Source: Candidatus Eremiobacter antarcticus
GTDB lineage: Bacteria > Vulcanimicrobiota > Vulcanimicrobiia > Eremiobacterales > Eremiobacteraceae
DNA: 64,000 nt
Direction of reading: 5' to 3'
Assembly: GCA_003244105.1 (NCBI GenBank)
Contig: QHBK01000003.1
Location: 62,001-126,000, forward strand
Under the pieces are notes generated by a model. That model searched no databases, was not told the origin of the DNA, and worked only from the letters and a program-made list of their open reading frames with translations. This document shows positions 30,446 through 34,223 of this stretch, in pieces. Position 1 is the stretch's first letter. Each line of letters begins with the position of its first letter. A program made the position numbers and the translations under genes.

Positions 30446-31417
30446 ATGGAATTAAGCGACCTCACGGTATACCACAACGGAAAGTACGCCCGTTACGAAG
30501 ATTCGAAGGTCGGCCTTCTCAGCCACGGCTTGAACTACGGGACGGGGTGCTTTGAAGGCATTCGCGGCTATTGGAACGAGCCGCAACAACAGCTGTACCT
30601 TTTCCGCCTGAGAGATCATTTCGACCGGCTGCTGCGCTCGGCAAGGGTATTGCTGATCAGCCCTACGGAAACCGCCGCGGAACTCTGCGCCCACGCGATC
30701 GAACTCGTGCGCATGAACGATTTGCGCCAAGAGATCTATATCCGGCCGATCGTCTTCAAAGCCGCGGAGGAGGTCGGCGTCCGCCTGCACGGAGTGCGCC
30801 ATGACCTATCCATAGTGGCGCTGCCTCATAAATCGTACTTTGATTCCTCGCGAGGCCTCCGCGCCACGATATCATCATGGCGGCGCATCGACGACAACAG
30901 CGCTCCCGCGCGCGCCAAGCTGACCGGCATCTACGTCAGCTCAGCGCTGGCCAAGACCGACGCCGTCAACAACGGATTCGATGAAGCCATACTGCTTACG
31001 CACGAGGGCCATGTCGCCGAAGGCAGTGCCGAGAACATCTTCATCGTCCGCGACGGCCTCGTCATCACGCCTCCGGTGACCGACAACATCCTCGAGGGCA
31101 TCACGCGGGCAACTATCTTGGAACTGTGCGCCGCTGAACTGGGCCTCTCGGTCCACGAGCGCAGCATGGACCGAAGCGAACTGTATCAAGCCGACGAGGT
31201 GTTCTTCACGGGCACCGCTGTGGGCGTCTCGCCGGTTGTCGAAATCGACCACCGTCCCATTGGCGACGGTAAGATCGGCAAAGTCAGCTCCGCTCTCGTC
31301 GACCTCTACCGGGACATCACCCTCGGGAAGCTGCATCAGTACCATCGCTGGGTGACGCCCTGTCTGCCTGTCTCCTCTGCAACCGGGCTGAGGGACAGCA
31401 CGGCGGCTGTCAACTGA
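30446..31417 (+). CDS. ilvE: Class IV aminotransferase, branched-chain type
   Basis: The protein has 323 residues from the ATG at 30446. Fold-type IV PLP motifs: HGLNYGTGCFEGIRGYW, RLRDHFDRLLRSA, catalytic Lys in RAKLTGIYVSSALAKTDA, EAILLTHEGHVAEGSAENIF and VFFTGTAVGVSPVVEID. It should interconvert branched-chain amino acids and their 2-oxo acids with glutamate. KLTGIY replaces the common KAGGNY, so D-amino acid or aminodeoxychorismate activity cannot be excluded. It has a tail of about 30 residues after the usual end (LHQYHRWVTP and beyond). Confidence 0.85.
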   Translation: MELSDLTVYHNGKYARYEDSKVGLLSHGLNYGTGCFEGIRGYWNEPQQQLYLFRLRDHFDRLLRSARVLLISPTETAAELCAHAIELVRMNDLRQEIYIRPIVFKAAEEVGVRLHGVRHDLSIVALPHKSYFDSSRGLRATISSWRRIDDNSAPARAKLTGIYVSSALAKTDAVNNGFDEAILLTHEGHVAEGSAENIFIVRDGLVITPPVTDNILEGITRATILELCAAELGLSVHERSMDRSELYQADEVFFTGTAVGVSPVVEIDHRPIGDGKIGKVSSALVDLYRDITLGKLHQYHRWVTPCLPVSSATGLRDSTAAVN

Positions 31418-31485: not shown

Positions 31486-31514
31486 TTGCAATGTCGTATG
31501 CGTTCATCTATACT
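31486..31514 (+). promoter_or_regulatory. Strong sigma-70-type promoter
   Basis: TTGCAA (-35) and TATACT (-10) are separated by exactly 17 bases. Transcription would start near 31521. No annotated large gene follows on this strand for more than 2 kb; the product is the structured leader and the 39-residue peptide. Confidence 0.65.
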
Positions 31515-31520
31515 AAGCAA

Positions 31521-31742
31521 GTAACACAAATCACATCTTAAGACATCCGTCGCCCGTGAAGCGACGAGTTTCAAAGAGATGAGATAGGCGTTACCGAGCA
31601 GATCGACAGATCTTATGTCCTGAGTATGGTAGCAGCCCTACCGGTGACACCGTAGCCTTACAGGTTACGGCGGTTCCGTCATCGACTCGCCCGAATCAAG
31701 TCTCACGATTCGCGAGCGACATCCAGAGGGGCACTTCATACC
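31521..31742 (+). ncRNA. Highly structured leader RNA (candidate cis-regulatory or small RNA)
   Basis: At least five hairpins lie in a row: GTCGC/GCGAC (31549-31565), AGATC-gaca-GATCT (31600-31613), GGTAG-cagcc-CTACC (31628-31642), CCGTAGCCT-tac-AGGTTACGG (31650-31670, one G-T pair), and CTCG..CGAATC/GATTCG CGAG (31686-31716, 2-base bulge). The first GTCGC can also pair with GCGAC at 31716-31720, closing the whole leader, so two exclusive folds exist. I compared the sequence with memory of c-di-GMP, c-di-AMP, SAM, TPP, cobalamin, lysine and T-box motifs and found no match. Confidence 0.5.
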
Positions 31743-31862
31743 ATGCATCAGCTACTCGGCGGCGTTGCGCTGCTATTCCACAGCTTTGGTGGCGTCCTCG
31801 GCACAGCAAACCACTTTCTGCACTCCATGGACTGGCTCATCATCACTAAGGGCCACGGCTAG
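31743..31862 (+). CDS. 39-residue hydrophobic His-rich peptide
   Basis: The frame begins MHQLLGGVALLFHSFGGVLG and ends in a short polar tail (TKGHG). It has five His, one Trp and one Lys; residues 4-34 are largely hydrophobic with Gly pairs, so a membrane or amphipathic helix is likely. GAGGGG lies 11 bases before the ATG. A strong promoter and a 220-base structured leader precede it, and its TAG overlaps the stop of the convergent HD-GYP-like gene. No family is recognised. Coding is inferred from context. Confidence 0.5.
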   Translation: MHQLLGGVALLFHSFGGVLGTANHFLHSMDWLIITKGHG

Positions 31863-33145
31863 TTCACAAGCTCGTCTAACAGACTGACGAGTTTGGGGTC
31901 ATAAAGCGTTCCGCTGCCTTCCCGGAGGCGCGCGAGCGCTTTTGGCTTGTTCAGGGGTTCGCACCCGTCATAGCCTGTCAGTAGGTTCACGTATTGGTGG
32001 GCCACCGCGATGATGCGCGACGGCAGGGGGATCGCGTCTTCCTGCAGCCCCCGCGGATAGCCCGTGCCGTCGTAATGCTCGCGTTGGAACTCTATCAGAT
32101 CCGCGATTTCGGGCGGCAACAATGCGTCAGCGGAACGAATCATCAAACCGCCCCAGCGGCCGAAGGTTAGGTACTGCGCGGTCTCTTTCTGATTAAGGTC
32201 AACGCCCTTGCGCAAGCGCGCGGGGAGATTGCTCTTGCCGATCTCGTGCAGCGCCGCAGCCAACACCGTCAACTCTAGCTCTTTCTTCGGCATGCCCAAG
32301 CGGCGCGCCATCATTTGCGATATGTTCTGCACTTCGGATGAAAATTCGACCGTTTCCGTGTCGGTCAGCCTGGCGAGGTCTCGGACCAGAGCTTGAGCCT
32401 GGCTTTGCGCTTTTTCGAGTTTGTGCAACTGCACTGTGATTCCGAGTATGTCCTGGAGAAACTTGATTTGCGCGACGACCACATAGAAGATGGTTGCGCC
32501 AATGATCCCCCCGAAAGTGTAAATCGCCACCAGAATGTAGGCGTAAATGGAAGCCACCACGCCCACTCTTAGCAGCTGGCTGAGCAGCACGGGCCGTTCG
32601 TTGATTTGAAAGTACACGTACACCAGGACGTTGTTGACCGTTTGGGTCACCATGCTCACGACCAGAACCGAGAAGAAGGTCAGCGCGGAGTGGAAGAGTG
32701 CCGGTGTCGACGCGGTAAGCCGGTGAAGCGGTTGCCAAGACTCAATCAAAGCGTACGAGCTGAGAACAGCAATACCTAATTGGCCCAGTGAGATCGGCGT
32801 GAGAAACTCGTTGATCTTCGAGCCGTCAACGCGAAAGCGCACCGTTAGGAGTGCGATAGCAGCCAACACCATCATCCAGGGGCCGAGCGCCACGCCGGAT
32901 GCGGCCAATATCGCCGTTAGAGGAGCTACCGTCGAAACAGCAGTACGGGTCGGGCGCTCCATCGCAACCAGAAAGACGGCAACGATGATCACCGACACGA
33001 GCGTGTTCGTGCTCAAATCGAAATGCAACGGAACGAAGATCAACAGGCACAGCGCGGCTGCAGCCAAACCGTAAAGGTATACTTGGCTGGCTGTGGAGCG
33101 CCAGGCGTCAGTATGTGCTTCGGCGACGTGTCCTGCGAGGGCCAC
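31859..33145 (-). CDS. Membrane HD-GYP-like protein with altered HD site
   Basis: The protein has 428 residues. Residues 1-235 hold about eight hydrophobic segments of MASE-type sensor layout. A short coiled linker (LEKAQSQAQALVRDLA) leads to an HD-GYP-like domain: LAAALHEIGKSNLP, FQREHYDGTGYPRGL and RIIAVAHQYVNLLTG. GYP and the DGTG loop are intact, but the HD pair reads HE, and the first metal His upstream is not evident. It may bind c-di-GMP as a sensor rather than hydrolyse it. It starts with GTG; GGAAAGG lies about 13 bases upstream. Confidence 0.8.
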   Translation of the reverse strand: MALAGHVAEAHTDAWRSTASQVYLYGLAAAALCLLIFVPLHFDLSTNTLVSVIIVAVFLVAMERPTRTAVSTVAPLTAILAASGVALGPWMMVLAAIALLTVRFRVDGSKINEFLTPISLGQLGIAVLSSYALIESWQPLHRLTASTPALFHSALTFFSVLVVSMVTQTVNNVLVYVYFQINERPVLLSQLLRVGVVASIYAYILVAIYTFGGIIGATIFYVVVAQIKFLQDILGITVQLHKLEKAQSQAQALVRDLARLTDTETVEFSSEVQNISQMMARRLGMPKKELELTVLAAALHEIGKSNLPARLRKGVDLNQKETAQYLTFGRWGGLMIRSADALLPPEIADLIEFQREHYDGTGYPRGLQEDAIPLPSRIIAVAHQYVNLLTGYDGCEPLNKPKALARLREGSGTLYDPKLVSLLDELVN

Positions 33146-33308: not shown

Positions 33309-34223
33309 CTATTCGTCGAGCGACGCGCTGATGTTCTTGCGGAAGAACGCGCGATAGGTCAGCAGCGATGCGCGCCGGATGAACCGCTCGCCGGCGTCAA
33401 GATCCGCAAGATGCGTCGTCATCACACAGATGACGTAGGGCGCGCCGTCGAGCTCGACGATGCCTACGTCGTTCAGGGTGTCACGTAAAGTTCCGGTTTT
33501 GTGGGCTATCGTCAGCCCTTTGGGAAGCCAGGCAGGGAGCAGGCGATTGTGGCGTTGCCCCGACAGGATCTGCAGCATCTCGTCGCAAGCCTGAGCGTTG
33601 ATCAGACGATGACCCGCTATCATGCCCAGCAGCCGCATCATATCGTTCGCGCTCGTGCGCAGGACCCGTATATCGCCGTCGGATCTGATCACGTCGCCCA
33701 ACCGGGTCTGATCGAGGCCTAGACCTGACATCGTCTGGTTGATGTGCTGACGGCCGACGAGGCGTATCAGCATGTTCGTGGCGGTGTTGTCACTCACGGT
33801 GATCATCGTCCACACCAGCTGCAAGACCGTGTATTGCGATCCCCAATGCGCCGTACACAGCGAACCATAGCCGCAATCGCGGTCTGCATCGGTCAGCGAA
33901 ACGGTTCGTTGAAAGCTGAATTTGCCGACATCGATTTGGCGCAAGACCTCGACCATCACCGGGACTTTTATGGTGCTGGCCGCCGGCAGATTCCGATCGC
34001 CGTTGATCGCGATGCTCATTCCGCTGTCCAAGTCGACGACCGAAACCGCGACCACTCCGCGTGTGCCGCTGGCGAGGCGCATCAACTGCGGCGCCAAGCG
34101 GGAGAGATGCGGCGCATCGGCGAGAGCAACCGTTCGCGCCGACTCTTGTGCGGCCGGAGCGACCGCACCATGCGAGCCGAAAATCGCGAGCCCGCACACG
34201 ATGGTGGAGATGACAAAACGCAT
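33309..34223 (-). CDS. Class A beta-lactamase-like serine hydrolase
   Basis: The protein has 304 residues with a signal peptide (FVISTIVCGLAIFGS). The penicilloyl-serine transferase motifs are in order: PAASTIKVPV (SxxK), TVSDNTATN (SDN) and IAHKTGTL (KTG). In the omega-loop region I read IRSDGDIRVLRTSANDMM with no ExxLN, so the general-base Glu of true class A beta-lactamases appears to be missing. It may therefore be a peptidase-like or penicillin-binding relative (Beta-lactamase2, PF13354). It faces the periplasm. Divergent from arginase. Confidence 0.83.
   Translation of the reverse strand: MRFVISTIVCGLAIFGSHGAVAPAAQESARTVALADAPHLSRLAPQLMRLASGTRGVVAVSVVDLDSGMSIAINGDRNLPAASTIKVPVMVEVLRQIDVGKFSFQRTVSLTDADRDCGYGSLCTAHWGSQYTVLQLVWTMITVSDNTATNMLIRLVGRQHINQTMSGLGLDQTRLGDVIRSDGDIRVLRTSANDMMRLLGMIAGHRLINAQACDEMLQILSGQRHNRLLPAWLPKGLTIAHKTGTLRDTLNDVGIVELDGAPYVICVMTTHLADLDAGERFIRRASLLTYRAFFRKNISASLDE

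Follow-up and report, generated by a model that had tools for sequence, protein, structure and literature searches.

Few bacteria, most of them well studied, are known to have dual-function RNAs or regulated micropeptides. VcdRP of Vibrio cholerae is a CRP-repressed dual-function RNA that encodes the 29-aa protein VcdP, and both the RNA and the protein are conserved (PMC8672173). In E. coli, AzuCR is a CRP-repressed small transcript whose small protein, AzuC, acts on a partner enzyme; SR1 and SgrS have also been named as dual-function RNAs (PMC8672173).

We analyzed a window of 64,000 nt from Candidatus Eremiobacter antarcticus (the whole stretch of DNA under study; contig QHBK01000003.1, positions 62,001 to 126,000), in which a promoter, a folded leader and a micropeptide ORF lie together. 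All positions below are those of the window. We give a probability of about 0.5 to the reading that this locus is a CRP-controlled structured RNA combined with a membrane-type micropeptide, forming one self-contained unit that behaves like VcdRP and AzuCR. The likeness to VcdRP would lie in a short transcript of its own, putative CRP-type control and the combination of a structured RNA with a small protein. However, the base-pairing segment of VcdRP is downstream of its ORF, whereas the structured part of the window unit is upstream, and no sequence relation between them is known. AzuCR resembles the window unit as a small transcript with a small protein and in its CRP-type control, which is presumptive here; it differs in that the window unit has no Rfam or protein match, and in genomic context and phylogenetic range. 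The proteins SR1P and SgrT have 39 and 43 aa, respectively. SR1 and SgrS are alike to the window unit as regulatory RNAs with an ORF of about 40 residues, but they are unlike it in regulators, sequences and arrangement. VcdRP and AzuCR are the closest precedents in behaviour, with no sign of common descent with the window unit.

Genomic context and distribution

The unit is located between two genes. Upstream of the promoter, a class IV aminotransferase gene (30446-31417, plus strand; Pfam Aminotran_4, 5e-52), which we take to be of the branched-chain type, has orthologues in the relatives and provided the syntenic anchor. On the other side, a convergent gene (31859-33145, minus strand; Pfam HD_5, 3e-25) encodes a membrane protein with an N-terminal hydrophobic part and a degenerate HD-GYP domain. 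Its stop overlaps that of the micropeptide ORF by 4 nt. The next gene beyond it encodes a class A beta-lactamase-like protein (33309-34223, minus strand; Pfam Beta-lactamase2, 6e-63).

An orthologue of the HD-GYP gene was present in 11 of the 14 family genomes. In all 11, a unit comprising a promoter, a leader of 205-306 nt and a peptide of 35-55 aa was found between the aminotransferase and HD-GYP genes, with the end of the peptide ORF at -96 to +13 nt relative to the HD-GYP stop. A first-pass annotation of the window, made from its letters only, had named loss of the stems or the peptide in relatives with the same neighbours as one observation that would count against its proposal; we looked in such relatives and the unit is conserved there. 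Genome G005, which has the aminotransferase gene but no HD-GYP orthologue, contained neither such a peptide nor a unit downstream of the aminotransferase gene. A CRP-like site, TGTGCTCTGGGTCACA (G005:C3:26080-26095, L146), is kept shortly after this aminotransferase gene and is followed by a duplicated, unrelated ORF.

A profile search of 149 genomes revealed no convincing copy of the peptide elsewhere in the phylum. The matches there, f2 and f3 included, were at chance level and mostly within other ORFs. The f2 and f3 genomes examined have no CRP site in the region that follows the aminotransferase gene. The first cross-genome DNA match (G088, 90% over 31 nt) sits in an unrelated coding gene and was discarded as a chance match.

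In an alignment of all 11 HD-GYP orthologues, HE or HQ replaces HD. The HHExxDGxGYP motif is also altered, reading QREHYDGTGYP in the window protein and HREHFDGAGGP in genus g3. These changes suggest that the window protein and its orthologues are probably not normal c-di-GMP phosphodiesterases; the altered protein is perhaps a sensor. In g3 (L050-L052), the HD-GYP frame continues antisense to the peptide ORF for 63-96 nt and ends with VERVHEVADAG. A functional link between the unit and this neighbour had been raised as a speculation at first pass. The synteny in 11 of 11 genomes and the lack of both partners in G005 agree with such a putative link, but the independent events are few.

Promoter and putative CRP control

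As previously annotated, a promoter is present at 31486-31514 on the plus strand, with the -35 box TTGCAA (31486-31491), a 17-nt spacer and the -10 box TATACT (31509-31514). It matches the consensus at 9 of 12 positions, which is weak taken alone; two promoter-like sites were found against 0.4 expected. The position of the promoter is the same in most relatives. Equivalent -35 and -10 boxes matching at 9-10 of 12 positions were observed in G006, G007, G008, G003, G010 and G011, and poorer -10 boxes in G002, G012 and G004.

Ten of the 11 leaders open with the palindrome TGTGAY-N4-RTCAC(A), which touches the start point; wherever the -10 box is clear, the palindrome follows it by 3-7 nt. The corresponding position in the window (31520-31535, no strand assigned) is occupied by AGTAACACAAATCACA, a degenerate CRP-like operator that departs from TGTGAY-N4-RTCACA at 2 of the 12 fixed positions. 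When at most one mismatch was permitted, the CRP-type pattern occurred 16 times in the window's own genome, compared with 2 occurrences of a reversed control pattern; the corresponding numbers in the 11 relatives were 6-26 and 0-4. TGTGAY-N4-RTCACA palindromes are found genome-wide, and several of those in the own genome are apparently intergenic (L167, L168, L170, L171, L177 and L181). These palindromes likely represent the CRP regulon of the lineage.

The own genome encodes a CRP homologue (C19, 250 aa; L182:979-1731), which is related to the mycobacterial and E. coli CRP structures in PDB (E ~1e-29) and has a canonical recognition helix, TTRETVNRM. At the corresponding place, the GTGA-reading helix of E. 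coli CRP is SRETVGRIL. A TGTGA-N6-TCACA site is located at the promoter in 10 of the 11 leaders, and the CRP with the matching helix is that of the own genome. The membership of the window copy in the CRP regulon is doubtful because its site is degenerate; with AGTAACACAAATCACA two positions off, CRP control may be weakened there. Since the operator overlaps the start point, the most likely effect of a CRP-family protein on the unit would be repression.

The leader RNA and a predicted terminator

The promoter is followed by a structured leader of about 225 nt (31517-31742, plus strand), whose start point we placed from the -10 box. Folded alone, the segment 31519-31742 reached -75.1 kcal/mol (z = -4.63), and none of 200 dinucleotide shuffles was as stable, in agreement with the structured leader described earlier. 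A 19-nt hairpin, CGTCGCCCGTGAAGCGACG (GTCGC/GCGAC, 31548-31566, plus strand), is part of it. The first-pass annotation had assigned two mutually exclusive pairings to GTCGC: this hairpin is real, but the second pairing is a 5-mer match that the relatives do not support. The full-length fold contains a different mutually exclusive pairing, which joins about 31619-31631 to the start-codon region (31737-31754). An Rfam search at the gathering score gave no match in the window. Relaxing it (E <= 10, lax filters) added a chance match on the other strand to an archaeal-type snoRNA model (E 4.8).

We compared the leader between genomes of the same genus. The identities of the leader, the HD-GYP gene, the peptide ORF and the upstream spacer were 87.8, 85.8, 95.2 and 37.1% in g3, 95.7, 91.2, 88.3 and 52.3% in g4, and 73.0, 70.7, 52.6 and 66.0% in g5. 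Thus, in none of the three pairs is the leader less conserved than the HD-GYP coding DNA, and it is far above the upstream spacer in two of them. Independently predicted structures of the two g5 leaders had 48 base pairs in common, against a mean of 4.8 (maximum 27) under a random-substitution null. In each of the five pairs compared, the second sequence had a folding energy 1.8 to 4.1 standard deviations lower than the null mean. The shared-pair counts of the two least diverged pairs were within the null range, and those of the two most diverged pairs only equalled the null maximum. Global alignment of leaders across genera was not reliable: alifold on g1, g8 and g9 broke one third of its pairs, and its pair counts are biased towards its own structure. 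As far as sequence comparison can tell, these results show that the leader is under selection for both sequence and structure in the relatives. They concern the relatives rather than the window copy, because the window genus is represented by one genome in the comparison and its leader is 40-45% identical to those of the two nearest genera.

A hairpin with the loop UGGCAG is common to the leaders of five other genera, on stems that are unrelated. It stands on 6-7 uninterrupted pairs in G008, G003, G010 and G011a, on 5 pairs in G004a, on a bulged stem in G007 and on 4 pairs plus a flanking stem in G006; G011b and G004b have a 7-nt loop, UGGCAGU, on 7 pairs. The stems vary between genera on both sides yet remain paired. 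No TGGCAG hexaloop on at least 6 pairs was found when 762,800 strand-bases from these genomes were scanned. Although the motif was chosen after inspecting the leaders, a density of 256 hexaloop hairpins per 60 kb, with 4,096 loop sequences possible, makes it unlikely that the recurrent agreement is due to chance. Judging from position and flanking pairing, UAGCAG at 31630-31635 (plus strand) is the probable counterpart in the window. Apart from this loop, we found no conserved core in the leaders across genera. We found no base-pairing target of the leader RNA.

At 31903-31943, the peptide strand carries a hairpin that resembles an intrinsic terminator and is followed by a T tract; it falls within the coding sequence of the HD-GYP gene and is too irregular for a simple scan. 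In 9 of the 11 genomes, a GC-rich hairpin and then a T-rich stretch occur about 40-55 nt past the peptide stop, inside the HD-GYP gene. Compared with synonymous recodings, the hairpin had z = -3.0 in the window and -1.5 to -3.6 in seven relatives, and it was more stable than the recodings in 8 of the 10 genomes tested (fractions 0 to 0.08). It is absent in g5, where no excess stability over recodings was seen. The predicted transcript would extend from about 31517 to 31945, about 425 nt.

The micropeptide

The ORF at 31743-31862 (plus strand) encodes the 39-residue peptide MHQLLGGVALLFHSFGGVLGTANHFLHSMDWLIITKGHG, which is hydrophobic and contains five His, as noted at first pass together with the overlapping stops. 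A search with this peptide found relatives in other genera of the family, and a profile built from six of these relatives found more; the profile search recovered orthologues in eight relatives (E 1e-10 to 3e-19), and the homology covers six genera. The g5 peptides (G004 and G011) were too divergent for the profile and were recognized by position. Their C-terminal halves carry short repeats (ESLVNPQ-like and DQMINSG-like; L056 and L055) and have evolved differently in the same micropeptide position. The dN/dS values of five peptide pairs were 0/0.12, 0.15/0.52, 0.45/0.99, 0.45/1.97 and 0.06/0.28, a pattern that shows purifying selection on the ORF as a coding sequence. The peptide had no match in Pfam, NCBIfam or PDB.

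The best 19-residue Kyte-Doolittle mean was 1.3-2.1 in 9 of the 11 peptides (35-55 aa). A typical one, MHLHELGGVLYNVLHSLGGVLASIGHFMHTFD..., repeats LGGVL every 11 residues, with His at a spacing of 11; this periodicity suggests an amphipathic or membrane helix. Most of the peptides lack a cationic C-terminus. The ribosome-binding region of the window copy is AGAGGGGCACTTCAT (31725-31739, plus strand), with a long spacing of 11 nt between the Shine-Dalgarno (SD) sequence and the start codon.

The features described so far have to be weighed against the possibility that the transcript is a plain micropeptide mRNA, in which the peptide would be the sole product and the leader a long structured 5' UTR that tunes translation. 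Purifying selection on the ORF, the well-placed SD in the relatives and the partial pairing of the SD or start codon in most genomes are all what such an mRNA would have. In addition, the peptide keeps more identity than the leader in most between-genus pairs, as expected of an ordinary 5' UTR. However, the leader is more conserved than the peptide ORF clearly in g5 (73.0 vs 52.6%) and somewhat in g4 (95.7 vs 88.3%), the reverse being true in g3, and a specific hairpin loop has been kept in five genera. With the leader ahead of the peptide in two of the three same-genus pairs and the UGGCAG loop recurring in five genera, an independent function of the RNA domain is probable. We consider the plain mRNA a possible but somewhat unlikely explanation.

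Additional copies of a leader segment

The hairpin CGTCGCCCGTGAAGCGACG occurs exactly at two more loci of the own genome (G000), C2:78059 and C12:1363. The two copies (G000:C2:78049-78124, L216; G000:C12:1353-1430, L003) are blocks of about 80 nt that consist of AAATAAAAA, the hairpin, a variable middle and TTCAAAAGGGGCACTTCATCA; both also contain GGGGCACTTCAT of the ribosome-binding region. Read on the same strand, they are partial duplications of the unit, and the C12 copy runs on into a frameshifted start of the ORF. Read on the opposite strand, they have a seed-plus-terminator layout complementary to the window hairpin and ribosome-binding site. The copies might be antisense sRNAs in the own genome only; as the ten relatives with the unit have no comparable copies, this reading remains a lead. 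Concatenated leaders were searched against 13 relatives, and 117 genomes were scanned with a covariance model; the candidate matches outside G000 proved to be either coding sequence or GC hairpins and were rejected.

A broader proposal would assign the unit to a family-specific dual-function class, in which a CRP-repressed UGGCAG-loop RNA would regulate RNAs or a protein, the micropeptide would control the HD-GYP receptor, and the duplicated antisense sRNAs would tune the system in the own genome. We regard this full form as unlikely.

The copies also bring to mind a type I toxin-antitoxin-like system, in which the hydrophobic peptide would be toxic, the leader would block its translation, and antisense sRNAs encoded in trans, on the minus strand at C2 and at C12, would pair with the ribosome-binding site and the hairpin. 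Both copies keep the 19-nt hairpin and the segment AGGGGCACTTCAT exactly, while their middles have diverged. On the minus strand, the 5' end, UGAUGAAGUGCCCCUUUUGAA, is complementary to AGGGGCACUUCAU, and the hairpin together with the TTTTTATTT that follows it makes a good intrinsic terminator. A peptide of <60 aa with this hydrophobicity fits such toxins (PMC8309996), and the ZorO-OrzO pair functions with a pairing of 15-18 nt (PMC3919570). The window unit shares with the tisB and zorO mRNAs a hydrophobic peptide of <60 aa that is preceded by a long, structured 5' region, with the ribosome-binding site partly paired; a further likeness, in the own genome only, is a possible trans-encoded antisense RNA. 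However, no antisense partner is conserved across the relatives, and no convincing model matches were found elsewhere. The C12 similarity extends into the ORF, like a decayed sense duplication. The minus strand has no clear promoter, and the leaders of the relatives have no consistent antisense promoter. Furthermore, the cationic C-terminus usual for such toxins is missing in most of the peptides. A type I system is quite improbable on these grounds.

Interpretation and significance

The two remaining explanations seem very unlikely. A riboswitch or ion-sensing leader controlling the micropeptide, the metabolite- or ion-responsive leader of the first-pass annotation, would suit the high degree of structure and the exclusive pairings that include the start-codon region, but it is disfavoured because leaders of close or sister genera are only 40-51% identical, with no conserved core found apart from the UGGCAG loop, whereas ligand-binding aptamers keep their core, and because the Rfam search stayed negative even when lax filters and E = 10 were allowed. 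Protein-bound DNA with vestigial sequence, in which the CRP site and promoter have another role and carry the peptide and leader along as passengers, would account for the CRP-like site that G005 still has downstream of its aminotransferase gene without HD-GYP gene or peptide, but the peptide, leader and terminator are conserved in the relatives.

We return to the reading of a structured RNA under CRP control that also encodes a membrane-type micropeptide. Transcription would start at about 31517 from a sigma-70-type promoter whose start point overlaps the CRP-type operator, and, judging from this position, a CRP-family protein would repress it. The RNA would consist of a strongly folded 5' domain and then the micropeptide ORF, and would end at the terminator inside the convergent HD-GYP gene. 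The RNA domain might act through RNA-RNA or RNA-protein contact, and by pairing near the start codon the leader might limit how much peptide is translated. The peptide might form a helix that lies on the membrane surface or spans the membrane and modulates a membrane protein, with the neighbouring membrane HD-GYP protein as the first candidate. It is from sequence that we infer expression of the unit, an action of the RNA by itself and an action of the peptide on the neighbouring protein. Two of the earlier suggestions, a leader serving a membrane micropeptide and a small RNA that ends in a coding part, are supported: leader and peptide are both under purifying selection in the relatives, and the unit has a promoter of its own and the terminator-like hairpin. 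The CRP-like site, the terminator in the HD-GYP gene, the conservation in relatives and the two extra copies of a leader segment go beyond the earlier description.

Across seven genera of a little-studied family, the unit has kept its promoter and operator, the folded RNA and the peptide, and in most cases the terminator, and it stands beside a catalytically altered second-messenger domain. If our reading is true, it would extend the dual-function kind beyond the few, mostly well-studied bacteria in which it is known. With one promoter, one regulator, one peptide and a neighbouring candidate partner, it is a short, testable system.
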